Source: Verrucomicrobiota bacterium (GTDB taxonomy: Bacteria > Verrucomicrobiota > Verrucomicrobiia > Limisphaerales > PALSA-1396). Taken from it: 64,000 bases of DNA. Under the pieces are notes generated by a model. It was not told the origin of the DNA. It made no database searches and saw nothing but the letters and a program-made list of their open reading frames with translations. Position 1 is the first letter of the stretch, and each line of letters opens with the position of its first letter. This document shows positions 18,520 through 33,750 of the stretch, one piece after another. The stretch spans positions 1 through 64,000 of the forward strand of contig JACQFP010000029.1 of NCBI GenBank assembly GCA_016200005.1, in the 5' to 3' direction. The position numbers and the translations under genes were made by a program.

Positions 18520-19146
18520 ATGCTCGATACTGATTTGATTCCCGCGCGCGAAAAAAAAACCCGCCGTCTCATGGTGGTGTTGCACGGTTTGGGCGACAGC
18601 ATGGACGGCTACCGCTGGCTGCCGGACGCGATGAATCTTCGGTGGCTCAACTATCTGCTCGTCAACGCGCCGGACCAATACTACGGCGGCTATTCCTGGT
18701 ATGATTTTGCCGGCGACAAAGGCGCTGGGATTCGGCGGAGCCGGAAACTGTTGTTCGACTTGTTGGAGGCGCAACGCAAGAACGGGTTTCCAATCGATCA
18801 AACGGTGCTGTTCGGTTTTTCGCAGGGCTGTTTGATGATTCTTGATGTCGGATTGCGTTATCCTCACCGTTTTGCGGGACTCGTCGGCATCAGCGGCTAC
18901 GTTTTCGAGCCGGAGCAATTGATCGCGGAGCTTACCCCGGTGGCGTTGCAACAACGGTTGCTGGTCACGCACGGCACGCAAGATCCGCTCATTCCTTTCG
19001 CCGAAGTTCGCGAGCAAATCAATTTGCTCAAAGCCGCCGGCTTGAACATCTCCTGGCACGAGTTTATGAAAACCCACACCATCGCGGGCGAAGCTGAACT
19101 CGAGATCATCCGCGATTTTGTGGGCGCCAGTTTTTCACGGGGCTGA
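18520..19146 (+). CDS. Alpha/beta-hydrolase, phospholipase/carboxylesterase family
   Basis: A 208-residue serine hydrolase of the acyl-protein thioesterase/carboxylesterase group. The nucleophile elbow 'GFSQG' lies near residue 108, 'THGTQDPLIP' supplies the Asp, and 'KTHTIAG' the His. The N-terminal 'VVLHGLGDSMDGY' forms the oxyanion strand region. No signal peptide, so it acts in the cytoplasm on an ester or thioester substrate that cannot be named. It lies 18 bp behind the cytochrome b/c gene and may be co-transcribed with it. Confidence 0.85.
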   Translation: MLDTDLIPAREKKTRRLMVVLHGLGDSMDGYRWLPDAMNLRWLNYLLVNAPDQYYGGYSWYDFAGDKGAGIRRSRKLLFDLLEAQRKNGFPIDQTVLFGFSQGCLMILDVGLRYPHRFAGLVGISGYVFEPEQLIAELTPVALQQRLLVTHGTQDPLIPFAEVREQINLLKAAGLNISWHEFMKTHTIAGEAELEIIRDFVGASFSRG

Positions 19147-19159
19147 CCCGTGTCGATGG

Positions 19160-19369
19160 TCAGGCGTGGGTTTGGCGCTGCGGCTCGGCGAACCAAATCT
19201 GCTCTGGCCGGCATGGCGGGGCTGGTTGCCAGTCCAGCGCGTGATCGACGACGCGCCGCATCTGATTAAACCACCACTGTGCGCGGCTCAGTTGACGCGG
19301 GGCCTGCAGATGCACTTGAAATCCGCACGCCTTGTCCAAACCAAGTTCCATTTGTTCTTGAGTTATCAT
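19160..19369 (-). CDS. Small conserved protein with QWWFNQMRRVVDHALDWQPAP motif
   Basis: A 69-residue ORF starting at ATG 19369 (MITQEQMELGLDKACGF). An AAAGG Shine-Dalgarno lies 6 bp before that ATG. The longer upstream extension overlaps a CCCCGAC palindrome and is unlikely to be coding. The protein contains 'SRAQWWFNQMRRVVDHALDW' and 'QPAPPCRPEQIWF', which I recall as a recurrent small protein in Verrucomicrobiota, but I cannot check. No function is known. It is convergent with the hydrolase gene (13 bp apart) and downstream of the chemosensory operon on the same strand. Confidence 0.55.
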   Translation of the reverse strand: MITQEQMELGLDKACGFQVHLQAPRQLSRAQWWFNQMRRVVDHALDWQPAPPCRPEQIWFAEPQRQTHA

Positions 19370-19387
19370 CAATTGCCTTTCGGTTGA

Positions 19388-19406
19388 CCCCGACTCTGGG
19401 TCGGAG
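19388..19406. repeat. CCCCGACTC.. palindrome copy between small ORF and kinase gene
   Basis: CCCCGACTC...GGTCGGAG is an imperfect copy of the CCCCGACTC/GAGTCGGGG palindrome. It lies just ahead of the small ORF at 19160-19369, within the 196 bp that separate it from the kinase stop. Confidence 0.55.
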
Positions 19407-19565
19407 TTGATTTGCGCATGATGGTAACCGGCGGGGTGGGACAAAAACCGTCCAAGCCAAAAGATTATTGGCGGCAAAAAGGACTCCAAATGCTGACACC
19501 CAAATGGGGTGCCGGGTGACGCTTCCGGCTCGGGGTCTGACTTGGCGCTTCCAGTTCGGAGAGCT

Positions 19566-22358
19566 TCAACTGATTTGCTCTCTGAGGGAAATGAGTTCCG
19601 CCTTGGTTTGTTTGAAGGTCACTTCCAGTTCGCGCAACTGCGTATCCGCGCCTTCAACGTTGTTCGAGTAACCCATTTGTTCGAGCTTCAGGCAGATCTC
19701 CACCAGTTTCTTGGCGCCAAGGTTGAGACTCATGCTGCGAAGGGCGTGGGCGTGAAAGGCCATCTTGGGCGGGTCGTTGAGGAAATGCGTGATCTGGGAG
19801 ATGCGCTGGGGTGCGCTTTCGAGGAAAAGCTCGACCAATTCCTTGAGCATGGTGACTCCGCCGGCAGGGGGAGTGCGATGCAGTTCGGCGATGATCGACG
19901 GGTCCAACAGATGATCCGCATCGGTGGATCGGTTGGCTATGAAGAACGCGGTGTCCGATGATTGCGTCTCGCCGGACCGCAGGCCGCTCAAGGCCGAAAG
20001 CCTGGTTGGTCCCCAGCGTTCGAGCGCGGCCTGCAATTCGGCGATCCGCACCGGTTTGGAAATATAATCATCCATTCCAGCGGCGAGGCATTTCTCCCGG
20101 TCGCCCAGCAGGGCATTGCCGGTCATGGCGATGATGCGCGGGCGTTGGTCCGGCGGCCAGCGTTGGCAAATCTGGCGGGCGGCTTCCAGGCCATCCATCT
20201 CGGGCATCTGCACGTCCATGAAAATCACATCGAAGGCCGGTCCGCCTTCCGTCTTCGGCCCGCCGGGCTGTAGGCCCATATCGCTCCGGGCCGGCAGTCC
20301 TCCACACTTCTCCAGGACTTCCCGACCGTTGTTGGCAACTTCGGCCCGGTAGCCGAGTTTTTGCAGGACGCTGAGGCCGACTTTCTGGTTGATCGGATTG
20401 TCATCGGCCAGCAACAAACGCAACGGGAGTCGCGTGGCGAAGGTGGTGTCGAGGGTTGGCGCGGCGGGGGCTTTCTTCTCCTTCTGCCACTGGAGGTTCA
20501 AGGCGCGGTACATCGAGTCGAGCAATTGTTCGGGCCGGATGGGTTTATGAATCAAGACCGCGACGCCTGCGCGGGCCAGGCGGGGGTCATCGCTGCGGAG
20601 GCGGACGGAGGAGAGCAGCGTAATGGGCAGAGGTGAGCTTGGGAAAGCAGAAAGCGGAGATGTCTGCACTTCCTCGTTTCTGCTTTCGGCTTTCGGCTTT
20701 CTGTTTTGTATTTGCTGTTTTTCCCATTGGCGAATTTCCTCGGCCAGGGTCAGGCCGTCCGTTTCCGGGAGTTGCAGGTCCAAAATCGCCACATCAAACG
20801 CCCCGGCTTTCGGTGTCGGGGGGTGGTTGAGCAGGGCGAGAGTTTCGGCGCGGGTGGCAGCGGTTTCGGGCATCATGCCCCACTGCTTGGCGCGGTGGGT
20901 CAGGATCTGGCGGTTGGTCGCGTTGTGGGCCACGATCAGCAACCGTTTGCCCGTCAGCAAGGGTTGCGGGTCCTGCCAACTGGGCGGCGCGGTGGCCAGC
21001 GCGGTTTTGGCCTGAATGACAAAATGAAACGCTGCTCCTTTGCCGGCGTCGCTTTCCACCCAGATGTTTCCGCCCATCAATTCGGTCAGCCGTTTGCAGA
21101 TGGCCAGTCCCAATCCGGTGCCGCCGAATTGGCGGGTGGTGGAAGCGTCCACTTGTTGGAAGGACTTGAAGAGGCGGTTTTGTTTGTTCAGCGGAATGCC
21201 CACGCCCGTGTCCCGCACCGTAAAATGCAGATGCCACAATTCAGGATGACGAATGAAATCGGTATCCGTCGGTTTTGCCACGCCCGGAGCTGCGGCCTCC
21301 GAGGCCGCGGTGCGCAAGCCATGCGAGGCCACTTTCACCTCGACGACCACCTCGCCCTGCTGGGTGAATTTGACGCCATTGCTGATCAAATTGACCAGGA
21401 TCTGGCGCAGGCGCGTGACATCGCTCACCAGGATTTGCGGGATGGCATCGTCCACGATGTAAGCGAGGTTCAACTCCTTCTCCGCCGCCTTGGGCGCCAA
21501 CAGTTCGAGCGCCTCCTCGATGCAGGTGTGCAACTCAAAGGGATGACTCTCCAGATCGAGTTTGCCCGATTCAATCTTCGACAGGTCCAGAATGTCGTTG
21601 ATGATCGTCAACAATGCATCCGCGCTGCTGCGGGTGGCCTCCACGTAATCGCGCTGCTCAGTCGTCAGCTCCGTATCCAGCAGCAAGGCCGTCATCCCGA
21701 TCACGCCATTCATCGGCGTGCGAATCTCATGACTCATGTTCGCCAGAAACTCCGACTTGGCCAACGTCGTCTCCTCCAATTTCTGATTGGCCGCGATCAA
21801 CGCCGCATTACTCTCCACCAACTGCTGCTGACTCTCCCGCAACGCCCGGTACGCCTCATCCCGCTGCATCTGGTTGAGATACGCCCGTGAATGATAGCGG
21901 ATGCGCGCGATCAATTCGATCTTGTCCGGCAGCTTCACCAGATAATCATTGGCGCCCGCCGCAAACGCCTGACTCTTGACCTGCGGATTCTCATTGGTGC
22001 TCAACACAATGATGGGAATATCCTGCGTCGCCGGACTGGACCGATACTGGCTGACCAACGTCAACCCATCAATCGCCGGCATCACCAGATCCTGCAGAAT
22101 CACCGTGGGCTTGATCTGATTGGCCAGCAGAATCGCCTCGGCCGGATCGGCGCAATAATGAAAATCAATGTCCGGCTGATGCGACAACGCCCGCCGGATC
22201 GCCTCGCACACCATCGCCTGATCATCCACCAGCAACACCATGGCGTGATATTCTGGCGGATGGACCGGCCGGGAAGGTTGAGAGTGCTTAGTTGAGAGTT
22301 GAGAGTCCGAACTCTCAACTCTCAACTCCGAACTCTCAACTCTCTTCGGGTTGGCCAT
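19566..22358 (-). CDS. WspR-type receiver fused to hybrid histidine kinase (REC-HisKA-HATPase-REC-REC-Hpt)
   Basis: A 930-residue protein. Residues 41-160 are a receiver with the WspR-like text '[18 protein letters not shown]', phospho-acceptor Asp90 and '[31 protein letters not shown]'. A coiled coil, a HisKA box ('[16 protein letters not shown]', His210) and a HATPase with 'DTGVGIP' and 'GGTGLGLAI' follow. Two further receivers come next. The first has 'VAHNATNR' where the acidic pair should be, the second is intact ('[11 protein letters not shown]', '[13 protein letters not shown]'). A C-terminal Hpt contains '[19 protein letters not shown]'. The gene sits where wspR (GGDEF) stands in Pseudomonas wsp. 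Residues 1-34 and several loops are repeat-derived; ATG 22241 is an alternative start. Confidence 0.85.
20235..20305. repeat. Palindromic GC-rich insert inside the third receiver
   Basis: The stretch contains GCCCG-c-CGGGC and GGCCGG arms and reads as '[22 protein letters not shown]', about 20 residues inserted just before '[15 protein letters not shown]', where receivers normally have only a few residues. Confidence 0.45.
20642..20708. repeat. Heptamer tract, unit GCTTTCG, in the second receiver
   Basis: The run gctttcg-gctttcg-gctttct and scattered AAAGC units (20642-20656) are tandem copies of period 7. They encode '[18 protein letters not shown]' between 'IRQWEK' and 'PITLLSS' of the degenerate receiver, a stretch absent from usual receivers. 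Confidence 0.65.
21292..21308. repeat. GCGGCCTC-c-GAGGCCGC palindrome in the HATPase domain
   Basis: A perfect 8+8 palindrome with one central base. It encodes part of '[16 protein letters not shown]' which lengthens the loop between 'VVVEVKVAS' and '[13 protein letters not shown]' of the kinase ATP-binding domain. Confidence 0.6.
22278..22346. repeat. Heptamer tract, unit TTGAGAG, forming a 16-bp perfect hairpin at the kinase start
   Basis: GTTGAGAGTTGAGAGT (22291-22306) and ACTCTCAACTCTCAAC (22311-22326) are perfect inverted copies around CCGA, and further units lie on each side. The tract encodes about 22 of the first 28 residues of the hybrid kinase ([20 protein letters not shown]). Confidence 0.85.
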
Positions 22359-22361
22359 GTT

Positions 22362-22442
22362 GGTCTAAAGTCTAAAGGCTGACTGAACAAAAGTCTACCC
22401 CGACTCGGAGTCGGGGCGGACTACGGACTACGGACTACGGAC
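22362..22442. repeat. Intergenic heptamers CTAAAGT and CTACGGA around a CCCCGACTC-g-GAGTCGGGG palindrome
   Basis: The 62-bp gap between the CheB stop and the kinase start is built almost only of repeats: ctaaagt-ctaaagg at 22364-22377, a perfect 9+9 palindrome at 22398-22416, and three ctacgga units from 22420 to 22440. The last tract also supplies the final codons and stop of CheB (SVVRSP*). Confidence 0.85.
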
Positions 22443-23536
22443 GGCTTGATTAGTCTCTCAAGTTGAGGGCCGATTTTGTCCAGGGGTAAAATGTCCGTCG
22501 CCGCCTGCAACTCCGCCGCCGCCTTGGGCATCCCATAGACCGCGCTGCTGGCCCGATCCTGCGCGATGGTGTGATGGCCGGAGTCGTGCAACGCCTTCAA
22601 ACCCGCGGCGCCATCGCGGCCCATGCCCGTTAACAGAACCCCCACCACCGCACCGGGCCACAACCGATCCACACTCCGAAAAAAGACATCCACCGACGGC
22701 CGGTAGGAAATTCCCCGTGGGTGGGCACTGTAACCCAGCCGGTCGGGGCTGACCAATATTAAATGGTCTTCGTTCCCCTGTGTCCCCACACCGGCTGTCA
22801 GGGCACGGGGCGAGCCGGCCAGGAGAACCGTGCCGGGCGTGGGTTGATCTCCCGCCTGCGCCAGCCGCACCGGCAAGGCGGTTTGAAAATCCAACCAGCT
22901 CGCCAGTCCCGGCGCGAATTGGGCGTCCACATGTTGCACGATCACAATGGCGGCGGGAAAATTGGCGGGCAAATGTGCCAGCAGGGTGGCCAGCGCGGCG
23001 GGGCCGCCGGCTGAAGCGCCAATCGCCACTAACGAACGGGTTGAGGGTTGGGAGGTGATAGTTGACCCCGACTCGCCCCGACCTTTCGGCCGGTCGGGGT
23101 CAACCCTCAACTTGGAACTCTCAACGGTTCGCTTGCCGTCATTGCCGATCAAGCGGTTGATGGTGTCGATCTTCCCCAATAGCGCCGTTGAGCCGGACGG
23201 AATGCTCGCACTGTCCAACGTCGGCGTGTTGACGGCGTCCAATGCCCCGGCACCCATGGCTTCAAACACCTTGGATGAATTGTGGTTCACGTTGGCGGTG
23301 ACCACGACAATGGCGCAGGGCGTGTTGGCCATGATGCGGCGCGTGGCCTCCACGCCGTCCATCTGCGGCATGATCAAATCCATCAGCACCAGGTCGGGCG
23401 TGTCTTTGGCGCAACGTTCCACCGCTTCGGCACCATCCCGCGCGATCCAGGCCAACTCATGCCCCGGCGCCTTGAGCAGCACCCGCCGCATGGCTTCGAC
23501 GGCCATCAGCATGTCGTTGACGATCGCAATTCTCAT
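22421..23536 (-). CDS. cheB: CheB-type chemoreceptor glutamate methylesterase (WspF-like)
   Basis: A 371-residue protein with an N-terminal receiver (Asp53 in 'VLMDLIMPQMDG'), a linker and a C-terminal methylesterase domain with catalytic Ser175 in 'GASAGGP', His202 in 'VQHVDAQF' and Asp308 in 'GMGRDG'. It removes methyl groups from the receptor encoded upstream, providing adaptation opposite to CheR. The linker (138-168, 'VESSKLRVDPDRPKGRGESGS') and the last residues (SVVRSP) are encoded by repeats. Gene order places it between CheA and the kinase, as wspF lies in Pseudomonas. The start ATG is 28 bp after the CheA stop. Confidence 0.93.
   Translation of the reverse strand: MRIAIVNDMLMAVEAMRRVLLKAPGHELAWIARDGAEAVERCAKDTPDLVLMDLIMPQMDGVEATRRIMANTPCAIVVVTANVNHNSSKVFEAMGAGALDAVNTPTLDSASIPSGSTALLGKIDTINRLIGNDGKRTVESSKLRVDPDRPKGRGESGSTITSQPSTRSLVAIGASAGGPAALATLLAHLPANFPAAIVIVQHVDAQFAPGLASWLDFQTALPVRLAQAGDQPTPGTVLLAGSPRALTAGVGTQGNEDHLILVSPDRLGYSAHPRGISYRPSVDVFFRSVDRLWPGAVVGVLLTGMGRDGAAGLKALHDSGHHTIAQDRASSAVYGMPKAAAELQAATDILPLDKIGPQLERLIKPSVVRSP
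23041..23122. repeat. Nested palindromes in the CheB linker
   Basis: TTGAGGGTTG (23041-23050) and CAACCCTCAA (23101-23110) are perfect inverted arms. Inside lie GTTGACCCCGAC/GTCGGGGTCAAC and CCCCGACC/GGTCGGGG. A further ACTCTCAAC heptamer unit follows to 23126. The whole block lies between the receiver and esterase domains. Confidence 0.8.
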
Positions 23537-23564
23537 AGTTACGTTTCGCGCTCTCCCCGTTCCG

Positions 23565-26066
23565 CTACACCGCTCCTCGCTGGCCGACTCCTACCGAGGG
23601 GGGTGGAGGGGGGAGAGGGCCACTATCGTCCGGTTCGCCAATCAAGTCCACCACCGCCTGCAACAGCGTTTCGTCGTGAAAACTTCCCTTGGTCAGATAA
23701 TAATCGGCACCGGCTTCCAGTCCGCGCAAGCGGTCCTCCTCCCGGTCCTTGTAAGACACGATCATCACGGGCAGGGAACTCAGGTGCGCGTCCTTTTTGA
23801 TGAGTGTCACCAGCTCGATGCCGTCCAGGCGCGGCATATCCACGTCTGTTATGACCAGGTCGTAATGGCCCGTCCGCACCGCGTTCCAACCGTCCATGCC
23901 ATCCACCGCCACTTCGGCGAGGTAGCCCCGACCCGTGAGTAATTTGCGTTCCAGTTCCCGCACGGTCAAGGAATCGTCCACCGCCAGGATGCGTTTGCGC
24001 TGTTTGGCGGTGGTGTCGATGGCGCTGCGATTCACCTTGTCCAATCGTCCGCCGGAAACCAGCTTGTCGATGGAACGTACCAGGTCTTCGACGTCCACGA
24101 TCAACACCGGCGAGCCGTCTTCCATGAGCGCGGCGGCGCTGATGTCTTTGACCTTGCCCAGGCGCGGGTCCAGGGTCTGCACCACCAGTTCGCGCTCGCC
24201 CAGAAAGTCATCCACAACCAGACCATAACGAGTCGCGCGGTCGCCCAGCACAACGACGGGCAAATGATCGCCCGATGGTTTATGGTCGCCGCAATCCAAT
24301 ACTTGACGGGCGGCGAGCAGTCCAATGTGTTGTTCACCGAACAAGAAATGATGGCGACCCTCAAGGGATTCGATCTTGTCCAGCGGCAGTTTCATGGTGC
24401 GCGTGATCTGTGCGAGCGGAATGGCGTATGGCTCGCCCGCCACCTCCACCAGCAACGTGCGGATGACCGAGAGCGTGATGGGGAGCTGCAGTTGAAAGCG
24501 CGTGCCCTTGCCGCGCTGGGAATTGACGCGGATGGTGCCGCGCACGCTCTTGACCATGTTGAGCACCACGTCAAGTCCCACGCCCCGCCCGGAGATTTCC
24601 GTCACCGTCTGTTTCAGGGTAAAGCCGGGCAGAAAGAGGAATTCGTACAGCTCGGCTTCACTCAACTTTTCCGCGACCTCGCGGGTCGTCAGATTTTTCT
24701 GCACAACGGCCTGGCGGAGTTGCTCCGGGTCAATGCCCGCGCCATCGTCCGCAATGATGATCAAGAGCATGCCGGCGCTGTGCCGGGCCTCCAGCCGGAC
24801 GGTGCCCGTGGGTGGTTTTCCCGTTTGCCGTCGCTCCTGCGGCGGTTCGCAGCCATGATCCACGGCGTTGCGCAACAGATGGGCCAACGGCGCTTCCAAT
24901 TTTTCCAGGATGTCGCGGTCCACCTGCGTGCTCTCGCCCAGGATTTCCAGTTGCACCTCCTTGCCCAGTGAACGGACCAAATCGCGGACCATCCGCGGGT
25001 AGCGCGCGACCGCGTCCCCAAACGGACGCATCCGGCATTTGAGCACTTCGAGATACAACCGGTGCGAGAGATTCGCGGAGCGGCGATCGTAGATTTCCAG
25101 GTCAGCCAACCGGTCGGTCAACCCCATCCGACATTCGGTCACCCGACTGAACACATCGTTCAACTGCGCCTCCAAGTTCGGGAGGCGGAAGGCGGAGTGC
25201 GGAATTCCGGTCTCCGCACTGCGAACTCCGCACTGGATTGCCTCGCGCAAACTGTCCAGGGATTTGGCCAGGTCCGATTGTTGGCGCTTGAGCCGTAGCA
25301 TCGCCTCGGCAAAGGGATGAAGCCAGCGTGAGCCGACCAATGATTCGCCGGCCAGACCCAGCAGACGGTTCAGGTTTTCCGCCGTCAACCGCAACACGCG
25401 GTTCGGCGAGTCAGTTGACCCGGACAGCTCAGTCGGGGTTGCGGGTGGTGCCGTTAGTTGAGAGTTCGGACTATCAACTTCCACCCCGTGGAGTAATGGC
25501 GGCGACTCCACGGGGCGAGACTCTCCACTCTCAACTGTCCGCTCAACTTTCAACTTTGAACCTGCAACCCCGACAGGGCTGTCGGGGTCAACGGTCTGCT
25601 CGGAACGCTGAACTTGCGGAGCGGCGGCGGAGAATTCGTTGACCTGGCTCGCCGTCATTACCCGCGTCAAGGTCTCGAGAAAGTCGTTGATCTCCGTGGC
25701 ATGATCCGTCTCCCAGCCGGCCAGTTCTGTTTCGGAGCGTTTGGAGATGTAGAGCAGCAGATCCACCCCCCGAAACAGCACATCAATCTCCTCTTGCCTC
25801 AGTTTTAGGTTGCCCTTTTGTGCGGCGACAAAACAATCTTCCATGGCGTGGGCCACGCGCACGGCGACATTCAGGTTCACGATTCGCGCCGCGCCCTTCA
25901 ATGAGTGCGCGGCGCGCATCAACGCTTCAAGCTGGTGCGACGCTCCCGGGTCGCGTTCCAGTTCGAGCAGGCCGCTGTTTAGAACGGCGGTTTGATTTTC
26001 GGCCTCCACGCGGAAAAGCTCCAGCATGGAAAGGCTGCTCAAATCGTCCATGTTCTGCTTGTTCAC
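23565..26066 (-). CDS. cheA: CheA-type histidine kinase with C-terminal receiver (WspE-like)
   Basis: An 833-residue hybrid CheA. The Hpt domain has His54 ('RAAHSLKGAARIV'). A repeat-rich linker (about 150-220) follows, then the dimerisation and ATPase domains ('HLLRNAVDHGCEPP', 'DDGAGIDPEQL', 'GRGVGLDVV'), a CheW-like P5 domain (about 525-665), and a receiver ('ILAVDDSLTVRELERKLL', 'LVITDVDMPRLDG'). It takes signals from the MCP through CheW proteins and phosphorylates CheB and the downstream response protein. There is no separate CheY. GTG 26066 overlaps the WspD-like stop (GTGA); ATG 26051 is an alternative. The repeat 'QCGVRSAETGIPHSAF' interrupts the dimerisation hairpin. Confidence 0.93.
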   Translation of the reverse strand: MNKQNMDDLSSLSMLELFRVEAENQTAVLNSGLLELERDPGASHQLEALMRAAHSLKGAARIVNLNVAVRVAHAMEDCFVAAQKGNLKLRQEEIDVLFRGVDLLLYISKRSETELAGWETDHATEINDFLETLTRVMTASQVNEFSAAAPQVQRSEQTVDPDSPVGVAGSKLKVERTVESGESRPVESPPLLHGVEVDSPNSQLTAPPATPTELSGSTDSPNRVLRLTAENLNRLLGLAGESLVGSRWLHPFAEAMLRLKRQQSDLAKSLDSLREAIQCGVRSAETGIPHSAFRLPNLEAQLNDVFSRVTECRMGLTDRLADLEIYDRRSANLSHRLYLEVLKCRMRPFGDAVARYPRMVRDLVRSLGKEVQLEILGESTQVDRDILEKLEAPLAHLLRNAVDHGCEPPQERRQTGKPPTGTVRLEARHSAGMLLIIIADDGAGIDPEQLRQAVVQKNLTTREVAEKLSEAELYEFLFLPGFTLKQTVTEISGRGVGLDVVLNMVKSVRGTIRVNSQRGKGTRFQLQLPITLSVIRTLLVEVAGEPYAIPLAQITRTMKLPLDKIESLEGRHHFLFGEQHIGLLAARQVLDCGDHKPSGDHLPVVVLGDRATRYGLVVDDFLGERELVVQTLDPRLGKVKDISAAALMEDGSPVLIVDVEDLVRSIDKLVSGGRLDKVNRSAIDTTAKQRKRILAVDDSLTVRELERKLLTGRGYLAEVAVDGMDGWNAVRTGHYDLVITDVDMPRLDGIELVTLIKKDAHLSSLPVMIVSYKDREEDRLRGLEAGADYYLTKGSFHDETLLQAVVDLIGEPDDSGPLPPPPPSVGVGQRGAV
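25192..25236. repeat. GTGCGGA-family repeat inside the CheA dimerisation region
   Basis: Units cggagtgcgg and ctccgcact-gcgaactccgcact lie in inverted orientation around an AATTCC centre. They encode 'QCGVRSAETGIPHSAF' between 'LDSLREAI' and 'LEAQLNDVFSRV' of CheA, where related proteins continue one helix. Confidence 0.6.
25455..25590. repeat. Mosaic of palindromes and TTGAGAG units in the CheA linker
   Basis: Contained here: GTTGAGAGTTCGGACTATCAAC (about 25457-25478), CCCCGTGGAGT (25484-25494) with ACTCCACGGGG (25505-25515), several CTCTCAAC units, and CCCCGACAG-gg-CTGTCGGGG (25568-25587). All of it is coding and gives 'DPDSPVGVAGSKLKVERTV' and 'ESRPVESPPLLHGVEVDS'. Confidence 0.8.
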
Positions 26067-26878
26067 GTGAGACTCCGGTTCAGCGTGTAAAACAACAGTT
26101 CCTCGTCCAGACAGCCGACGGATTTGTTGCGCCAGGTTAGTATGCCGCGGCTGTAATTGGCCGCGTTTTTGGCCAGTGTGGCGGGCACTTCCGTCAACTC
26201 TTCGGGACGATACCTTTGGATGCCCTGCACTTCATCAACCGGAAAGACCAGCCGGCTGTTGTTCCACTGTGCCACTAGCAGGCGGGAAACCGAAAAGGCT
26301 TCACCCTCTGGAGCAAGGCCGGCGACTCCTCGGGGTGAAGGCTCAAGGCTGCGCCGATTCCGAGTCGGGGTAGATTTCAAACTTTGGCCTTTAGCATTAG
26401 CGGAGTCCAGCCCCAACAGCCGCCCCACTGAAACGCAAATCAACAGTTCACCCCGGATGTTCGTCAGACCCAAAACGATGCCCTGCCGCCGATGGGGCAG
26501 CGAGTGGATGCTCCGGTGCTCCACCACTTCCAGAAAAACCTGCGCGGGCAGCGCCAGCCATTCCGCGCCGATCCGGAAAATCACCACTGAAACGCCCCGA
26601 CTCCGAGTCGGGGCACTCCCAATTCCACACTCCGCTTTTGAATAGCGTTCCGTCCATTCGCGTCGATATCGGGCGGGTAATTCCCGATCCAGCAAACGCG
26701 TGCCCGCCGCCGAATAGACCGGACAGTTTCGACAGTGCACAAATTTCTCCAGTTCAGCGCAAGAACTGTCGCCATTCACACCGATTTTGTCCCAGCAGTC
26801 GCTAATGAGTTGACCCCGACACCGGCTGTCGGGGTCGACTCTCAACTCTCCACTATCAACTTGCCGCCCACTTTTCAT
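26063..26878 (-). CDS. CheW-like adaptor with Cys-rich N-terminus (WspD-like)
   Basis: A 271-residue adaptor. The N-terminal part reads 'DCWDKIGVNGDSSCAELEKFVHCRNCPVYSAAGTRLLDRELP', the Cys-rich text I know from WspD, with Cys residues that may bind metal. A CheW domain follows from about residue 95 ('SVVIFRIGAEWLALPAQVFLEVVEHRSIHSLPHR...VLGLTNIRGELLICVSVGRLLGL'). It bridges the receptor and CheA at the membrane. The first 24 residues come from repeats (RVDPDSRCRGQL), and an insert 'PSPRGVAGLAPEGEAF' near 180-195 comes from a CCCYGNGGAGT palindrome. The start overlaps the CheR stop and the stop overlaps the CheA start, each by 4 bp. Confidence 0.88.
   Translation of the reverse strand: MKSGRQVDSGELRVDPDSRCRGQLISDCWDKIGVNGDSSCAELEKFVHCRNCPVYSAAGTRLLDRELPARYRREWTERYSKAECGIGSAPTRSRGVSVVIFRIGAEWLALPAQVFLEVVEHRSIHSLPHRRQGIVLGLTNIRGELLICVSVGRLLGLDSANAKGQSLKSTPTRNRRSLEPSPRGVAGLAPEGEAFSVSRLLVAQWNNSRLVFPVDEVQGIQRYRPEELTEVPATLAKNAANYSRGILTWRNKSVGCLDEELLFYTLNRSLT
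26299..26340. repeat. TTCACCC..GGGTGAA palindrome in the WspD-like gene
   Basis: CTTCACCC (26299-26306) and GGGTGAAG (26333-26340) are inverted arms; GGAG and CTCC nest inside. It belongs to the same family as the elements at 25484-25515 (CheA) and 27495-27533 (CheR). Its product 'PSPRGVAGLAPEGE' matches 'PSPRGVGGFTPQGE' of CheR, showing a shared element in the same frame. Confidence 0.75.
26595..26613. repeat. CCCCGACTC-c-GAGTCGGGG palindrome in the WspD-like gene
   Basis: A perfect 9+9 palindrome around one C. It encodes 'APTRSRG' between the Cys-rich N-terminus and the CheW domain. A half copy (ccgagtcgggg) lies at 26360-26370. Confidence 0.8.
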
Positions 26879-26900
26879 ACTTTAGCCTTTAGACTTCTTT
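26814..26900. repeat. Palindrome and heptamers at the WspD-like start
   Basis: CCCCGACA..TGTCGGGG at 26814-26834 is followed by CTCTCAAC units (26840-26860) and by actttag-cctttag-actt (26879-26894). The tracts encode the first 24 residues of the WspD-like protein and the last residues of CheR (SLKAKV*). Confidence 0.8.
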
Positions 26901-28512
26901 GCGCGCGTTTGTGCAGAAGCCGGGCGCCATGGGCGTCGCCATTTTTTCCCGACAGCGTGGCCATTTGCACCAAGGTTTCATAATGGTTCGGCTCCAGATA
27001 AAGCGCCTTGCGGTAGTATTCCACCGCGTCATCCAGTTGGAGGTTGGCCCCGACACCGGCTGTCGGGGTCAACTTGTCACTGGCAACCGCTTCCGAAATA
27101 AGTCCCAACAAATAGTAAGCCTCTGCTAGTTGAGAGGACAGTTGACCCCGACTCAGAGTGCGGGGTTGAGAGTCTTTCGTTGAGAGTTGAGAGTCCTCTC
27201 CGAGCTGTAGGTCAGTTTGGCGCCGAGCCGGAGGCGAACCCTCAACTCTCAACACTAAACTCTCAACTAGCTTCTCGCATATCCGGGCGGCTTCCGCCAG
27301 TCGGCCTCCGTTGGCCAACCGGGCCGCCTCCGTCAGTTGACCCCGACTCAGAGTGCGGGAGTTGACCCCGACACCGGCTGTCGGGGTCGACTTAGAACTC
27401 TCAACTTGCTTGCTTTTGGCAACCGGCTTCCGCCCCGACAGCGGCTGTCGGGGTTGACCCCGACTCAGAGTGCGGGGTTGAGAACGGAGAGTCTCGCCCT
27501 GAGGAGTAAAGCCGCCTACTCCACGGGGTGAAGGTTGAGCGTTTTTACTCTCAACTCTCAACTTGGAACTCTCAACTGCTTTACGACAGGCCGCCGCCAT
27601 CGGGATCCGGGCGGAGGTGAATAGCGGCGACGGTTGAGAGTTCGGACTATCAACTTTCAACTCTCCACTCTCAACTGGCCTGATGACCAACGGCAGTTCC
27701 ACCGGGCAGACAAATAGCACGCCGGTTGGCTGGAGCAGGCGTTCGAGCTTTTGCAGAACTTTTCCCTGCGTGGGGCGATCGAAGTAGATCAATAGGTTCC
27801 GGCAGAAGATGTAGTCATAGTGGTGGCGTTGGTTCAGCGGGCCCTCGGCGTGCTCTGCCAGGACGTTGCCTCGGTGGAAGCGGACTTGATCGCGCACGGT
27901 TTGACTCAGCAGATAGCTGTCCTCGTGGGGTCGAAAGTGGCGGTCGCGGTAGTCGCCCCGACACCGGCTGTCGGGGCGAAAGGAGTTTTTGCGATAGACG
28001 GCGCGGCGGGCGGTTTCGAGCGCGTGGGTGCTGATGTCCACGGCGTCGATTTGAAATCGCTCGGCGGGCAGGCCGGCGTCCAACAGCGCCATGGCCATGG
28101 AGTAGGGTTCTTCGCCGGTGGAGCAGGGCAGGCTTAGGAGACGAAGAACTGGTTGAGAGTCTTTAGTTGATAGTCGAGAGTCCGAACTATCAACTCTCAA
28201 CTGACAACTATCAACCCCGCACTCTGAGTCGGGGTCAACTGTGTTCGCGGGCAGCCATTCGCTGCGCACGAGGCGGACGAGGGCGGTGAAGGATTCTTGG
28301 TCGCGGAAGAACCAGGTTTCCTTCACGACGACGGCTTCGACCAGGGCGGTCAGTTCGGCGGGGGTTTCTTGCAGGTATTTAGTGTAATCCTCCAGCTTGG
28401 TCAGTTGGTGGTGCTGCATGCGCAGACGGACGGTCTGGCTGATGGAGGTGGACCCGATGGATTCGGCGTCCAGCCCGATGGTGCGCTTCAGTAGATTTTC
28501 AATTTGATGCAT
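26875..28512 (-). CDS. cheR: CheR-type methyltransferase with TPRs, invaded by repeats (WspC-like)
   Basis: A 545-residue receptor methyltransferase. The all-helical N-terminal domain starts at MHQIENLLKRTIGLD. The SAM site is 'LLSLPCSTGEEPYSMAMALLDAG', with 'YDYIFCRNLLIYFDRPTQ' further on. The C-terminal part holds TPR helices ('QLTEAARLANGGRLAEAARICEKLV', 'QLAEAYYLLGLISEAV', 'DDAVEYYRKALYLEPNHYETLVQMATL'). It methylates the receptor with S-adenosylmethionine; TPRs are usual in WspC. ATG 28512 was preferred because residues before it in the longer frame overlap the CheW gene and are not conserved. Repeat inserts total well over 150 residues and fall in the linker, in the catalytic domain and inside the TPR hairpins. 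Confidence 0.9.
   Translation of the reverse strand: MHQIENLLKRTIGLDAESIGSTSISQTVRLRMQHHQLTKLEDYTKYLQETPAELTALVEAVVVKETWFFRDQESFTALVRLVRSEWLPANTVDPDSECGVDSCQLRVDSSDSRLSTKDSQPVLRLLSLPCSTGEEPYSMAMALLDAGLPAERFQIDAVDISTHALETARRAVYRKNSFRPDSRCRGDYRDRHFRPHEDSYLLSQTVRDQVRFHRGNVLAEHAEGPLNQRHHYDYIFCRNLLIYFDRPTQGKVLQKLERLLQPTGVLFVCPVELPLVIRPVESGELKVDSPNSQPSPLFTSARIPMAAACRKAVESSKLRVESKNAQPSPRGVGGFTPQGETLRSQPRTLSRGQPRQPLSGRKPVAKSKQVESSKSTPTAGVGVNSRTLSRGQLTEAARLANGGRLAEAARICEKLVESLVLRVEGSPPARRQTDLQLGEDSQLSTKDSQPRTLSRGQLSSQLAEAYYLLGLISEAVASDKLTPTAGVGANLQLDDAVEYYRKALYLEPNHYETLVQMATLSGKNGDAHGARLLHKRAQRSLKAKV
27048..27068. repeat. CCCCGACA..TGTCGGGG palindrome inside a CheR TPR
   Basis: Perfect 8-bp arms around 5 bp. 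On the coding strand it gives 'LTPTAGVGAN', which separates 'ISEAVASDK' from 'DDAVEYYRKAL' in a TPR hairpin. Confidence 0.8.
27146..27268. repeat. Palindrome plus inverted TTGAGAG heptamers in the CheR TPR region
   Basis: CCCCGACTCAGAGTGCGGGG (27146-27165) is followed by GTTGAGAGTTGAGAG (27179-27193) and, inverted, CTCAACTCTCAAC (27241-27253) and CTCTCAAC (27260-27267). They encode 'VESLVLRVEGSPPARRQ' and 'EDSQLSTKDSQPRTLSRGQ', inserted between two TPR helices. Confidence 0.8.
27341..27533. repeat. Cluster of five palindromes in the CheR linker
   Basis: Four CCCCGAC elements occur at 27341-27359, 27366-27386, 27433-27453 and 27458-27477. The fifth element, CGCCCTGAGGAGT..ACTCCACGGGGTG, lies at 27495-27533. 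The coding strand reads 'PSPRGVGGFTPQGE', 'RTLSRGQPRQPLSG', 'STPTAGVGVNSRTLSRGQ'. Confidence 0.85.
27541..27682. repeat. TTGAGAG/CTCTCAA heptamer units in the CheR linker
   Basis: Runs of ACTCTCAACTCTCAAC (27548-27563), GGAACTCTCAACT, GTTGAGAGTTCGGACTATCAAC (27632-27653) and CTCTCCACTCTCAAC lie in both orientations. The protein text is 'VESGELKVDSPNSQPS' and 'VESSKLRVESKNAQ'. Confidence 0.75.
27956..27976. repeat. CCCCGACA..TGTCGGGG palindrome inside the CheR catalytic domain
   Basis: Perfect 8-bp arms. The coding strand gives 'RPDSRCRGDYR' between 'RRAVYRKNSF' and 'RHFRPHEDSYLLSQTVRD', inside the SAM domain. Confidence 0.8.
28151..28234. repeat. TTGAGAG units and palindrome in the CheR catalytic domain
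   Basis: GTTGAGAGT, GTTGATAGTCGAGAGTC, CTATCAACTCTCAAC and CAACTATCAAC are followed by CCCCGCACTCTGAGTCGGGG (28215-28234). The product 'VDPDSECGVDSCQLRVDSSDSRLSTKDSQ' lies between 'RSEWLPANT' and the SAM motif 'SLPCSTGEE'. Confidence 0.8.
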
Positions 28513-28523
28513 CAGCGTGGGTT

Positions 28524-29009
28524 TCAAGTTGGAAGCGGCGCTGCCGCCGCGGGTGAAATGGTTTCTGAAAAGAGCAGGTCGCGGACTTTTTCGGACAGGA
28601 GGCGTTGTTCGTGCACCCACTGGATGACGCCCTGGCCATCCATGAGCACCGGCCCCAGGTAGGGCGCGGCGCCGAGTTGCACGCCGGAATCCACAAAGTC
28701 TTTGCTGTCGCGGCGCAGCATTTCGGTGGCACGCTCGGCGATCAGACCAAGCAGAAGATTCTTCCCGGCGTGGTCGGAGTACTTCACCACGATGATGCGG
28801 GTGCTCAATCGTTCGCGGGCGGGTTGATCAACGGCCAACTCGCTCAGATCCACCGCCGGCACCGGGCGGCCGCGATAGTTGAACAGTCCGGCCACACCCT
28901 TGGGTGCGTGCGGAATTTTTTTCAACTCCAGCAACGGCAACACCTCAACCACCCGGCTGGCGTCCAGCACGTAACGGTCATTGCCCAGTTGAAACAAGAG
29001 AAACAACAC
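28524..29009 (-). CDS. cheW: CheW-like coupling protein (WspB-like)
   Basis: A 161-residue single-domain CheW protein: 'MLFLLFQLGNDRYVLDASRVVEVLPLLELKKIPHAPKGVAGLFNYRGRPVPAVDL' covers the first beta subdomain with the conserved 'GLFNYRG', and the rest forms the second subdomain ('LLLGLIAERATEMLR'). It physically links the MCP to CheA in the receptor array. It lies 7 bp downstream of the MCP gene and 11 bp upstream of the CheR start. Unlike the genes around it, it contains no obvious repeat insert, as expected if such inserts are not tolerated in a compact domain. Confidence 0.92.
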   Translation of the reverse strand: MLFLLFQLGNDRYVLDASRVVEVLPLLELKKIPHAPKGVAGLFNYRGRPVPAVDLSELAVDQPARERLSTRIIVVKYSDHAGKNLLLGLIAERATEMLRRDSKDFVDSGVQLGAAPYLGPVLMDGQGVIQWVHEQRLLSEKVRDLLFSETISPAAAAPLPT

Positions 29010-29016
29010 GGCGTTC

Positions 29017-30612
29017 CTAACCTCCCAATTTGAAGCGCGTCACGCTGTTTTGCAAGCCGCGGGCGGCTTCAGTCAACTGTTCATTCGCCAGGTTCGATTG
29101 CCGCAAGGAATCCGCGGTTTGGTGCGCGGCTTCGCTCAATTGTGTCAGAGTTTCGCTGATCTGCTGGGCGCCGGTGGCCTGTGATTGCATACCTTCGTTC
29201 ACGGTTTGAAAGCGCGGCGTCAACGTCTGAACCTGGTGAATGATCTGTTCCAACTGCGCGCTGACCTGGCGGATGCCTTCGACGCCCCGGCGCACCTCCT
29301 CGGAGAACTTGTCCATCCCCATGACTCCGGCGGAAACGGCGGATTGCATCTCCTTGACCATCTTTTCGATGTCGTAAGTGGCCACAGCCGTCTGGTCCGC
29401 CAAGCGGCGGATTTCCATCGCCACCACGGCAAAACCGAGGCCGTACTCACCGGCTTTCTCGGCTTCGATGGCGGCGTTCAGGGAGAGCAGATTGGTCTGG
29501 TCAGCCACCTTGGTGATGGTGGTGACGACGGAATTGATGTTGCTGGTCTTTTCGTTGACGACCGCCAGTTTTGACGTGATGGAACTGGAGGCTTCCATGA
29601 TCTGCTTCATAGTCGCTTCCATTTGCGAGATGGCGGTCTGGCCGCTACCGGCGAGGCTCGCGGTTTCCTCCGCCACTTCGTTGACCTCGTTCATGGTCTT
29701 GACCAGTTCCTTGGTGGTCGCAGAAATTTCCTTGGACGTGGCGCCAATCTCCGCGGTGGTGGCAGCAATTTCATTGGCGGTGCTCTGTTGTTGCTTGGCC
29801 GTGGCCACAATTTCAGTGGCCGTAATGTTGACCTGAATGCCAGACCGTTGCACCTGGCCGACCAGGCCTGACAGATCGTCCGCCAGACGATTCAGTCCGT
29901 CAGCCACGACTCCAAATTCGTCCCGCCGCTTCATCCCGATCCGTTGGGAGAAATCCCCGCTGCGCATCCGATCCAATGCTGCGACCAATTGGGACAGGGG
30001 TTGGTTGATGGCTTTGGACTGGTAGCGGCTGACGACAAAACTCACGATCAAGAGGATCATCAAAACAGTGATTTCCACCAAAGTCATTGCTTGAAACTTT
30101 TTGGAATCAACCACGTCCGTTTTCTGCAACTGGTCGTAAAACTCCTTGATCAAATCATCCTGCTGCTTGATCAACGACACGTAATTCTTCTGGTAGAAAT
30201 TGACTGCCTCCGTTGTGTTGGTTTCGAGAAGCGAAAGCAGGTCACTCTTGGGCTTTGAATTGGTTTTTAGAGCGAAGTTGCGGAGAGATCTGAGTGCGAC
30301 ATACAGATTGGATTTTTCGTCAATCAGCGTGTCCAGCTTTGCGAGGTCGGTGAACAATTCCTTGTCGGACTCCTGGAGCCGCCTTTTATCCACGTCGCTT
30401 TTCGGGTCCAAAATCAGAATCCGCAACGAATCGCTCGTTTGCAGCAGGTCTTGGCGGACCCGATCCGCCGCCGCAGACCGCTGAATGGCCTGAAGCGCGG
30501 CCGACGATCGCAGTTTCTCCACCCCAAACACCAGGCCAACGCCAATCAACAACAGCAGGATAAGCGCCGCCGACGATGTGTAAAGATGTTGGCCGATGGT
30601 CAATCTTTTCAT
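29017..30612 (-). CDS. Methyl-accepting chemotaxis protein (WspA-like)
   Basis: A 531-residue receptor with TM1 (about 12-32), a periplasmic helical sensor domain of about 140 residues, TM2 (about 172-195), HAMP (about 196-250) and a signalling coiled coil. The hairpin tip reads '[42 protein letters not shown]', followed by '[29 protein letters not shown]', text I associate with WspA. It has no C-terminal CheR-binding pentapeptide (ends RFKLGG). It is the first gene of the seven-gene operon. It likely senses a surface- or envelope-related cue; the ligand is unknown. No repeat inserts were seen. Confidence 0.93.
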
Positions 30613-30999
30613 TGCGTGATTTGGGGGTTAATGACGTGTAAAGTCTGATCGACAAGTCTTGCAATAACAGGCTTGGAAAGACTCATTGCGGCGCCCGTTT
30701 CGATGCGTCTTCATGGCAAGAAATCGATCCGCATAGTTTTGTCCACATTGATCTCTGATGACACACAAGTATGACATTTGCCTCCCGAACACAAGACTAA
30801 GATGGACGGAGGAAATGCCATAGGTCGCCTTGACAAGAAGCCCCCCGGCCATGTGGATTTCTCGCTTTGAATTGACCTATGGGCGCGCATCGCTTCAGGT
30901 CGTCTGCGGACCATCTGACGGCAGGCGGTGCGGAATCGTTGAGGATCAACGTGCCAGTTGTTCGGAGGCAGACACGCTCCAACGCGAGCTCCAACGCGC
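30613..30999. other. 387-bp gap upstream of the chemosensory operon
   Basis: This gap between the MCP start and the transaldolase stop should hold the operon promoter. I see no convincing -35/-10 pair on the minus strand and no gene with family support. A 74-codon minus-strand ORF (30628-30852) ends in 'CYCKTCRSDF' but has no other support. Confidence 0.4.
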
Positions 31000-32007
31000 T
31001 TACAACCGCTCCGCAATGTATTTCTCCAGCTTCACCGTATCGGCGGCGAAGTTACGGATGCCTTCGGCGGTTTTTTCCGTCGCCATCGCGTCCTCGTTCA
31101 GCAGCCAGCGGAATTTATTCTCATCGAGCGTGAGTTTTTCAATCTTGCTCTCCCTTGCCATCGAAGGGCTGAGTTTCCGTTCGACCGGTACGGTGCTGCC
31201 TTTCAACTCCGCTAAAAGATTCGGACTGATGGTCAGGAGATCACAGCCGGCCAGTTCCACAATCTCGCCGACGTTGCGGAAGCTTGCGCCCATGACCTCC
31301 GTCGAATAACCAAACTTCTTGTAGTAGGCATAAATCTCCTTGACGGACTTGACACCGGGATCGTCCACGGGTGCGAAATCCTTCCCCGTGCTCTTCTTGT
31401 ACCAATCCAAGATTCGTCCTACGAACGGCGAGATCAATCGCGCCTTGGCCTCGGCGCACGCGACGGCTTGCGGCAGTGAAAACAACAGCGTCATGTTGCA
31501 GTTGATGCCTTCCTTCTGCAAAATCTCTGCTGCGCGAATGCCTTCCCACGTTGAAGCGATCTTGATCAGGATTCTTTCCTTGGCGATGCCGTTCTGCTTG
31601 TAGAGCGAAATGAAAGAACGCGCCTTGTTCACCAGCCCTTCCGTATCGAACGACAGGCTCGCGTCCGTTTCGGTGGAAACGCGGCCGGGAATGATCTTCA
31701 AAATCTCCAGCCCGAACAAGACCAACAGATAATCGAGCGTCTGACTGATCATCTGCTTTCTGCTCGCGCCCCGACATCCGATGTCGGGGTTGTCGGCCAG
31801 CGCTTTTTCCACCAGCGACTTGTATTCCGGCATCTGCGCGGCCTTAAGAATCAGCGTAGGATTGGTCGTGGCATCCTGCGGCGCAAATTCCTTGAAGGCG
31901 TCAAAATCTCCGGTGTCAGCGACGACCTTGGTGAATTTCTTGAGTTGCTCAAGCTGGTTGACGGCTTGGCGAGTCTCGACTTTTATCGGTTCAGCAATTG
32001 CGCTCAT
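31000..32007 (-). CDS. tal: Transaldolase
   Basis: A 335-residue class I aldolase of the TalB type: '[26 protein letters not shown]' with catalytic Asp31, the Schiff-base Lys149 in '[20 protein letters not shown]', '[21 protein letters not shown]', '[14 protein letters not shown]' and '[11 protein letters not shown]'. It transfers dihydroxyacetone units between sugar phosphates in the pentose phosphate pathway, in the cytoplasm. Loop residues 72-81 ([10 protein letters not shown]) come from a CCCCGAC palindrome. ATG 32007 gives the usual N-terminus. The gene is upstream of the chemosensory operon on the same strand but 387 bp away, so probably separate. Confidence 0.96.
31769..31789. repeat. 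CCCCGACAT..ATGTCGGGG palindrome inside tal
   Basis: CCCCGACAT (31769-31777) and ATGTCGGGG (31781-31789) are perfect arms around CCG. The coding strand reads '[10 protein letters not shown]', in a surface loop between '[12 protein letters not shown]' and '[16 protein letters not shown]'. Confidence 0.8.
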
Positions 32008-32107
32008 AAATAAACTGGGTTGAGATTTCCCTGGCCAAGATGCCGCAACAGCTAAACCAATGCAAACTTACTTTGCTATTGTATCGATTAGGCGACGCTC
32101 GTAGGGG

Positions 32108-32139
32108 AACAAGGGACGTTCTTTTGCCTGTCCCTTGTT
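32108..32139. repeat. 10-bp perfect inverted repeat in the tal/lipase divergent region
   Basis: AACAAGGGAC (32108-32117) and GTCCCTTGTT (32130-32139) flank 12 bp. It lies between the transaldolase start (32007) and the lipase start (32224), so it could be a leader hairpin, an operator or a dispersed repeat. Confidence 0.45.
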
Positions 32140-32223
32140 GTAGTGGATGGAATGCTTCCCGTCTTCTTTACGACGTTTTGAAAAATTCTCGTTTCTCCGT
32201 TGAAAACAGATCATATTGCGGGC

Positions 32224-33750
32224 ATGGGGAAACTGACCGCCATCGTGGAAGTTGTCGCCTTGCTCCTCGCGCCTGTCGCATTCACTCGCGGAGCAGGAGT
32301 CACCATCCTCACGCACGGCTTCAACGGAAATGTGACTGATTGGATCATTCCAATTGCGCAACAAATAACCAATTACGATTCCTTCCCAGGGTTCAACTCC
32401 AGTTGTTATCAAATCACCGTGGACGCCGACTTCTTCCACAACTTTTCCGTGACGCAATCCAGAATTGGCGGCGTCAACCCAACCAATTCCGATTCCGGCG
32501 AAATCCTCATCAAACTCGATTGGTCGTCGCTTTCCGTTGATCCTTCCTTTTCAACGTCAGACATCGCAGACAATGTTGTCCCCAAGCTCTTGATTACGAA
32601 TTTCATTCCCGAGCTAGGCGGCCGCGCGCTGGTTGAATTCCCCATCCACCTGATTGGTCATAGTCGCGGCGGCCCTTTGGTTACGCAGTTGTCAAAACTC
32701 CTCGGCAACAAGGGAGTCTGGGTCGATCACATCACCACGTTGGATCCGCATCCCGTTTCGCAGTATGGCGACCCGGACGTTCATGTGTTCGCCAATGTTT
32801 TTTTTGCGGACAATTACTGGCAGACGAACGCGGACGGTTCGTGTCCGAATGGACAATCGGTTGATGGCGCCTACAACCGGTACTTGATGAATTTACAGAA
32901 TGGATACGACTGCAACCACAGCGACGTTCACTTTTGGTATCACGGGACGATCGATTGGCAGGATACACCGATCACGGTCGATGGGGCGACAATCACCAGC
33001 GCCGAGCGTGGTGTTTGGTGGACCAGTTATGAATCGCAAGGGCGCAACGCGGGATTCTATTACAGCCTGATCGGCGGAGGCAACCGACTCAGCACGAACG
33101 AGCCGGCCGGCAGCGGGAACGGGCGAACCCAAGATGGTCTGAATCAGATGTGGAACTTTGGGGTCGGAACTTCGAGCAACCGAACCGCTCTGGCATCAAA
33201 CAATGCCACCTGGCCAAACCTCATCAAATTCGACTTTGAAACCGTTCGCACGGTTATCCAAGGCGACAATATTTCGCTGAGATACTTTTTTCAATTCGGT
33301 CAATCTGCTTCGGATACTGCGACCGTCCAAGTCCACCTTGACGATGACGCCAATCCTTATGACAGAGATCTCGGTCAAGTTTTCCAGGTGACTGAATCGG
33401 GCACAGGCACAAATGCTGTCGGGCAGCATCAATTCGCTTTCAATACCACGAACACATCGCCGGGGAGTTATTACGTTTATGCGAAAATCAGCGACGGCAT
33501 TCACACGCGCTACCTGTATGCTCCTGGGAAATTGATTATCGAACCACCGATGGCCCTCGGAATAGTTAAGATTGGCAATGAGGTGATCATAACCTGGCCG
33601 ACCAATGCGGTTGGGTTCCTTCTCGAGAGCACGACCAATCTCCTTAACGCCTGGTCAACTAATTCGCCACCACCCGTTATCATCAATAGTCAGAATACCG
33701 TCACAAATACTGTCGGCGGTGGGAATGTGTTCTATCGGCTGAAGAAATAG
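32224..33750 (+). CDS. Exported lipase-like alpha/beta-hydrolase with verrucomicrobial C-terminal module
   Basis: A 508-residue protein starting MGKLTAIVEVVALLLAPVAF (signal peptide). The hydrolase domain begins 'VTILTHGFNGNVTDWI' (oxyanion strand) and has the nucleophile elbow 'HLIGHSRGGPLV', with 'ITTLDPHPV' after it as likely Asp region and 'HFWYHGTIDW' as a possible His. The C-terminal 75 residues ('VKIGNEVIITWPTNAVGFLLESTTNL...NVFYRLKK') match the module seen in other exported proteins here. It is likely secreted and acts on a lipid or ester. ATG 32224 was chosen; a TTG at 32200 would put 8 charged residues before the signal. Confidence 0.75.
   Translation: MGKLTAIVEVVALLLAPVAFTRGAGVTILTHGFNGNVTDWIIPIAQQITNYDSFPGFNSSCYQITVDADFFHNFSVTQSRIGGVNPTNSDSGEILIKLDWSSLSVDPSFSTSDIADNVVPKLLITNFIPELGGRALVEFPIHLIGHSRGGPLVTQLSKLLGNKGVWVDHITTLDPHPVSQYGDPDVHVFANVFFADNYWQTNADGSCPNGQSVDGAYNRYLMNLQNGYDCNHSDVHFWYHGTIDWQDTPITVDGATITSAERGVWWTSYESQGRNAGFYYSLIGGGNRLSTNEPAGSGNGRTQDGLNQMWNFGVGTSSNRTALASNNATWPNLIKFDFETVRTVIQGDNISLRYFFQFGQSASDTATVQVHLDDDANPYDRDLGQVFQVTESGTGTNAVGQHQFAFNTTNTSPGSYYVYAKISDGIHTRYLYAPGKLIIEPPMALGIVKIGNEVIITWPTNAVGFLLESTTNLLNAWSTNSPPPVIINSQNTVTNTVGGGNVFYRLKK

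Follow-up and report, generated by a model that had tools for sequence, protein, structure and literature searches.

Passages of one account describe the Rickettsia palindromic elements (RPEs) as small palindromes that lie in frame in many unrelated genes and are apparently tolerated there, about half of them being in genes (PMC10969869, citing Ogata 2000 and 2002). REP elements of the GTAG and CGTC kinds are sometimes located inside the coding regions of bacteria, and GTAG REPs are plentiful in Opitutus terrae, a member of the Verrucomicrobia (PMC3733652). Among the simple repeats of bacteria, heptamers show the greatest over-representation; they have been linked to polymerase slippage and are described mainly as intergenic (PMC4679880, PMC4692102). 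The present analysis concerns a cheR/wspC-like gene of 545 codons (26875..28512, minus strand) in a 64-kb stretch of DNA (the window), which is part of the 74-kb contig C29 in the 6.54-Mb genome of a soil Verrucomicrobiota bacterium (the host) from a free-living soil lineage. Most probably, short self-complementary repeats, either selfish or produced by slippage, were recently inserted or expanded in the che operon that holds this gene, and selection retained those that lie in loops and leave the frame open, with CheR kept working. The repeats are gains, are in frame and stop-free in the frame used, lie between folded elements and are clustered locally, and the enzyme core has been under purifying selection over the split from the sister species.

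Like RPEs, as far as those passages describe them (PMC10969869), the small hairpin repeats of the host lie in frame within many unrelated protein-coding genes, and palindromic hairpins were found in frame within open reading frames (ORFs) of proteins that are presumably functional. RPEs measure about 150 bp and those of R. conorii end in CGTC (PMC3733652), whereas the host elements are untagged and made of 21-64 nt units, no CGTC terminal tag being conserved in the flanks of 14 palindromes. They also differ from RPEs in being partly 7-nt repeats, often nested, several per gene, locally amplified, and in Verrucomicrobiota. Compared with RPEs by description, the effect is the same, and what was established is a likeness of effect rather than membership in the REP or RPE families. 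The tandem 7-nt units are over-represented, as in heptameric repeats/STRR (Nostoc, Xanthomonas GGGNATC; Beggiatoaceae TAACTGA), but the latter are mainly intergenic with one dominant unit, while the host has many unit families, with half of the arrays in genes in frame and several inverted into hairpins (PMC4692102, PMC4679880). A literature search on heptads in Verrucomicrobia found nothing.

The CheR gene and its inserts

The Wsp genes wspABCDEF are ordered MCP-CheW-CheR-CheW-CheA-CheB, and the host operon has the same order (transaldolase, MCP, CheW, CheR, CheW, CheA-REC, CheB, hybrid kinase) and is syntenic with that of the sister species. The sister, a species of the same family, provided the comparison genome, whose matched contig shows no difference from 'Limisphaerales bacterium isolate palsa_1396'. 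The host protein has a CheR domain, a linker and a TPR part like WspC; unlike the Wsp system, its CheR is about 126 residues longer and the final gene of its operon encodes a hybrid histidine kinase in place of a GGDEF WspR.

As an earlier note on this DNA had claimed, the reading frame is open throughout, from the ATG at 28512 to 26875, with an alternative GTG start at 28620 that overlaps cheW1. The protein matched PF01739 (CheR S-adenosylmethionine (SAM)-binding domain) at E 3.6e-36 and 124.9 bits (cut-off 27), and no NCBIfam equivalog was above cut-off for CheR. The AlphaFold2 (AF2) model of the 545-aa protein matched Salmonella CheR (1bc5_A) with a TMt of 0.82 (E 1.7e-15), and the sister model gave 0.83. 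All invariant CheR columns were present in the host protein in alignment A1, which holds 38 sequences (host CheR, sister, and 36 further orthologues including the outgroup L066, 413 aa matched). The TPR_1 match was weak (21.9 bits, below the 27.8 cut-off). The suggestion that inserts split the TPR and catalytic parts held, with inserts at two TPR places; the TPR part was not destroyed, and all six C-terminal helices, consistent with a TPR part of the WspC type, were predicted at 385-544 after the linker.

The syntenic CheR of the sister has 419 codons against 545 in the host, a net difference of about 126 residues. The inserts were absent from the sister, from L066 and from 35 other orthologues in A1, and they are therefore lineage-specific gains. 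Orthologues sharing the inserts had been proposed as a sign of functional linkers; the insert-free CheR orthologues point instead to invasion, while at Der and GlnRS the sister has related heptads at the same site. Ten gaps (399 nt) separate the two CheR genes, and about 71% of the gap sequence is repeated or hairpin. In the host gene, 31.6% of the nucleotides fell in 13-mers recurring in the 74-kb contig, the highest share in the operon (neighbours, 4-14%; shuffled contigs, 2.6-3.0%), and this corresponds to about 173 codons' worth, background included, so the estimate of more than 150 repeat-derived residues was about right.

Repeat insertions were found at six or more separate sites of CheR, every one in frame. 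Insert I1 (28151..28242, minus strand; codons 91-121) lies between SEWLPAN and the SAM motif, consists of the palindrome GTTGACCCCGACTCAGAGTGCGGGGTTGA and, after it, a heptad hairpin of 64 nt, and has an RNA fold z of -4.1; the full hairpin, GTTGAGAGTCTTTAGTTGATAGT...ACTATCAAC, spans 28152..28215 with no strand assigned and was the seed sequence of the nhmmer search (E 7e-20). Insert I2 (27956..27976, minus; codons 179-186) lies between RKNSF and RHFRPHE and is the 21-nt palindrome CCCCGACAGCCGGTGTCGGGG, read PDSRCRG, which replaced some 12 ancestral nucleotides and so gives a net +9 nt relative to the sister. The linker holds I3 (27632..27677, minus; codons 279-294), a heptad hairpin read VESGELKVDSPNSQ, and I4 (27334..27579, minus; codons 312-393), rebuilt from heptads, an CACCCCGTGGAGT..ACTCC hairpin and four palindromes. 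In the TPR part, I5 (27139..27270, minus; codons 415-458), a nested hairpin with a palindrome, lies between helices (RNA fold -68.8 kcal/mol, z -6.95), and I6 (27042..27075, minus; codons 480-491) is a palindrome read TPTAGVG at a hairpin turn. The places named in the earlier note (RSEWLPANT to the SAM motif, RKNSF to RHFRPHE, the linker and the TPR hairpins) were thus confirmed. The number of open frames out of six was 1 for I1 and I4, 2 for I5, 3 for I3, 5 for I6 and 6 for I2; in every insert the frame in use is an open one, with a chance of about 0.004 for all six by our own arithmetic, before the demand that insert length keeps the frame.

Selection and structure

The ratio of nonsynonymous to synonymous change (NG86 dN/dS) between host and sister was 0.116 for the CheR core, 0.158 for the SAM part and 0.204 for the TPR part, and 0.053-0.138 for the operon neighbours; these values are rough, because dS was mostly near 1 or more. 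The three-way relative-rate test gave 35 private CheR changes in the host and 24 in the sister (p=0.19), and the other operon genes were balanced. The AF2 model of the host protein had a predicted local distance difference test (pLDDT) score above 90 in the core and of about 40-65 in the inserts (mean 78.9, against 87.1 for the sister), with every CheR and TPR element kept and the inserts forming low-confidence loops. In the insert-free model, 37% of core junctions lay outside helices and strands, and all five non-linker insert sites were at or beside loops, a chance of about 0.007 that is approximate, the insertion points being uncertain by a few residues. The open frames, loop sites, dN/dS, rates, invariant residues and AF2 model argue that CheR was under selection while the inserts accumulated, and the enzyme is probably still working, as judged from sequence and model.

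The earlier note had left two possibilities, tolerated loops or a decaying gene. On the second, the function of CheR is no longer needed, the inserts pile up, and a stop has yet to appear. The inserts are indeed recent and many, no other gene of the operon is as laden with repeats as CheR, and there is the mild excess of host-lineage changes; but the insertions are stop-free as well as in frame, though several offer one or two open frames out of six, the invariant residues are intact with a core dN/dS of about 0.12 and a non-significant rate difference, and similar inserts occur in LeuRS, GlnRS and Der, which are expected to be essential genes. Decay is accordingly quite unlikely, and tolerated loops, with inserts that are disordered, placed between secondary-structure elements and compatible with a kept fold, low dN/dS and open frames, are favoured.

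Repeat types, local copies and mode of spread

The CheR inserts are built of three hairpin types. Type (a) comprises palindromes CCCCGAC-N7-GTCGGGG, often within GTTGA..TCAAC, with CCCCGACTCAGAGTGCGGGG as a related palindrome; the operon has five copies within 1.2 kb, four of them identical and the fifth with one difference, read in three frames (PDSRCRG, TPTAGVG, PRQPLSG), and all six palindrome frames are stop-free. Type (b) comprises hairpins of 7-nt units with ends GTTGA...TCAAC, the 64-nt form occurring at 28152-28215, 22277-22340 and C22:45639-45702. In the 874-kb sample used for genome-wide repeat counts (0.87 Mb of the 6.54 Mb), the arm order was GTTGA then TCAAC at 7/7 sites with both arms close (two-sided sign test 0.016, own arithmetic). 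Type (c) comprises the CACCCCGTGGAGT..ACTCC hairpins. Palindromes can also occupy the loop of heptad hairpins, as at 23040-23125.

Copies were concentrated locally. The arm GTTGACCCCGAC had 12 copies in the genome, 11 of them within 9 kb (C29:19383-28239), and the heptad-hairpin core occurred at about eight places, four in the che operon and two neighbouring on C22, with no match in five other genomes searched. Over the operon, 28 gaps of at least 3 residues (1,017 nt) separated host and sister, and 44% of the gap sequence was repeated or hairpin against 10% of the aligned nucleotides; MCP and the first CheW had zero such gaps. Not every length difference is repeat-derived, because some gaps, mainly in the hybrid kinase, have no repeat signal. 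A second cluster of type (a) palindromes was found at C70:26977-27981, in frame in another sensor-kinase-like gene. This gene (C70:26275-29481) was observed to hold three in-frame palindromes read TPTADVG, SPTAGVG and TPTAVVG.

Further repeat elements, all on the minus strand, lay in the neighbours of CheR. The cheW2 gene contained the type (a) palindrome of the CheR inserts, read DPDSRCRG (26814..26834, sequence match), and the palindrome CCCCGACTCCGAGTCGGGG, read APTRSRG (26595..26613, sequence match and gap list against the sister). A palindrome read PDSPVG was matched in the cheA linker (25568..25587), and a nested heptad hairpin with a palindrome core was located in the inter-domain linker of cheB (23040..23125, nhmmer and gap list). 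A 64-nt heptad hairpin, read as 21 residues, was detected at the N-terminus of the hybrid kinase gene (22277..22340; period-7 scan, nhmmer, RNA fold), and the palindrome CCCCGACATCGGATGTCGGGG, read PDIGCR, in the transaldolase gene (31769..31789, sequence match). The C-terminal end of cheB, with the region of its stop (..PSVVRSP*, window 22417-22442), is made of a 7-nt array of ACGGACT units. In the span 19566-30612, the last operon gene encodes a REC-HK-REC-REC-Hpt hybrid kinase whose N-terminal receiver is WspR-like by eye. Rfam gave 0 matches at gathering score in window 19000-32500.

The inserts may themselves be functional, as a contingency locus working by 7-nt gain and loss, as mRNA-regulating hairpins or as adaptive linkers. 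Seven is not a multiple of three, and slippage would therefore turn the gene off and on again; the hairpins in the mRNA are highly stable, with z as low as -8.5, and phase-variable short repeats are known in bacteria (PMC4692102). The CheR units, however, are interrupted and short, the inserts are not conserved in the sister or the outgroups, and inserts of these kinds are also present in genes for aminoacyl-tRNA synthetases, the silencing of which would presumably kill the cell; a function of this sort is improbable.

The palindromes resemble REP elements, which are 20-40 nt palindromes found at times within coding regions (PMC3733652), and they could be REPs moved in trans by a RAYT, a transposase of the Y1 tyrosine type. 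Four Y1_Tnp genes are present in the genome, and, as noted, REPs occur within coding regions elsewhere and abound in Opitutus terrae (PMC3733652). Unlike REPs, the host palindromes have no GTAG or CGTC tag and no adjacent RAYT, and one operon has most copies of its own palindrome, so that the copies are concentrated in one 9-kb region and not dispersed. GTAG was near 1/14 palindromes, there in CheR codons predating the insert, and the stretches surrounding the four Y1_Tnp genes held no copies of these palindromes or of the heptad hairpins. Membership in REP/RAYT was rejected on the absence of a conserved tag at the 14 palindromes and of copies around these genes, and movement in trans by a RAYT is unlikely.

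On the preferred explanation, insertion followed by selection, the che/wsp-like operon has undergone repeated, recent insertion or expansion of the 21-nt palindromes, the 7-nt-unit hairpins and the third hairpin family. Selection would have removed the insertions that changed the frame, created stops or broke helices or strands, and those left on a working CheR would be disordered surface loops. The spread may have been by local copying, through hairpin-primed template switching or slippage in replication, and not by a dedicated nearby transposase; local copying is favoured because the copies are concentrated in a 9-kb stretch and no gene for a transposase was seen beside them. Several points weigh against this explanation. 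The copies of a repeat hardly differ from one another, whereas host and sister differ strongly at silent sites; the inserts therefore look recent, and a dN/dS taken over the entire split is blind to decay begun after insertion. CheR changes show a slight, non-significant surplus in the host lineage, the copying mechanism is one that we infer, and the four Y1 transposases could act on the repeats in trans.

Repeats across the genome and their meaning

The inserts are not confined to CheR; the phenomenon extends across the genome. Tandem period 7 alone stood out in the sample, with 62 strong segments and 0 in shuffles; periods that are not multiples of 7 gave 0-4 segments, and periods 14, 21 and 28 gave 29, 8 and 2. 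A total of 117 period-7 arrays (134 per Mb) were found, 59 of them within predicted genes; since predicted coding sequence makes up 83% of this DNA, genes hold fewer arrays than their share without being free of them. The units included AACTCTC, AACCCTC, AAATCCG, AAAGCAG and ACGCATC. In the sister sample there were 13 period-7 matches, of which four were N runs and were discounted, and the mirrored control of the heptad pattern was uninformative, the unit ACTCTCA being mirror-symmetric. Genes with arrays included LeuRS, GlnRS, Der, RdgB, TrpE/PabB-like, IMPase-like and two UvrA-like genes, the names other than LeuRS, GlnRS and RdgB being given by sequence reading.

LeuRS (C22:238052-241025) has two in-frame heptad inserts. 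One, of 12 residues, is immediately followed by the conserved VDLYVGGTEHAVLHL block and is missing from 1h3n, the solved LeuRS that matched best; this comparison was with LeuRS in the PDB, the sister LeuRS having been found in part only. Der has a near-perfect array in the host and a degraded one (GACTCCCAACTCTCGACTTTC) at the same place in the sister, and GlnRS (C6:210882-212703) has one insertion site with TCACGCA-type units in the host and TCAACxx units in the sister. Since the sister has related heptads at these sites, some insertion sites are old and long tolerated, and GlnRS suggests that the heptad family at an old site can be replaced. It may also be, though this is doubtful, that the 7-nt-unit hairpin copies itself locally without a transposase (snap-back/template-switch), homogenises copies within operons, and builds flexible loops into proteins including aminoacyl-tRNA synthetases. 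The occupied Der and GlnRS sites of the separately assembled sister also speak against an assembly or gene-calling artefact of this metagenome-derived genome. Short repeats can be mis-assembled and both genomes are drafts, but the inserts (21-250 nt) are in frame in many genes spread over many contigs, and the genes around them are ordered as in the sister, which makes an artefact extremely improbable.

The 27-bp palindrome CCCTCTCCCCATCSGATGGGGAGAGGG had 69 copies in the host and none in the sister, was patchy in other families, and within genes was mostly read LSPSDGER. Two adjacent UvrA-like genes (C6:61785-68977) hold many in-frame inserts of heptads (SRITHHASR-type) and of the LSPSDGER palindrome. 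The contig end past the window (C29:67600-73100) is dense in heptad arrays of several families. Heptad expansion recurs in separate lineages, since a genome of the same order but another family holds 30 exact copies of AACTCTCAACTCTC.

Rickettsia is the best-known case of in-frame 'protein-coding palindromes', and here the same outcome was met with different repeats, genome-wide, in a free-living soil lineage, whose insert-free sister naturally represents the state before insertion. It thereby becomes testable how much disordered insertion an enzyme can bear and by what agent the heptad and palindrome repeats of bacteria are copied, and annotators are warned that odd low-complexity stretches in Limisphaerales proteins are repeat-derived.

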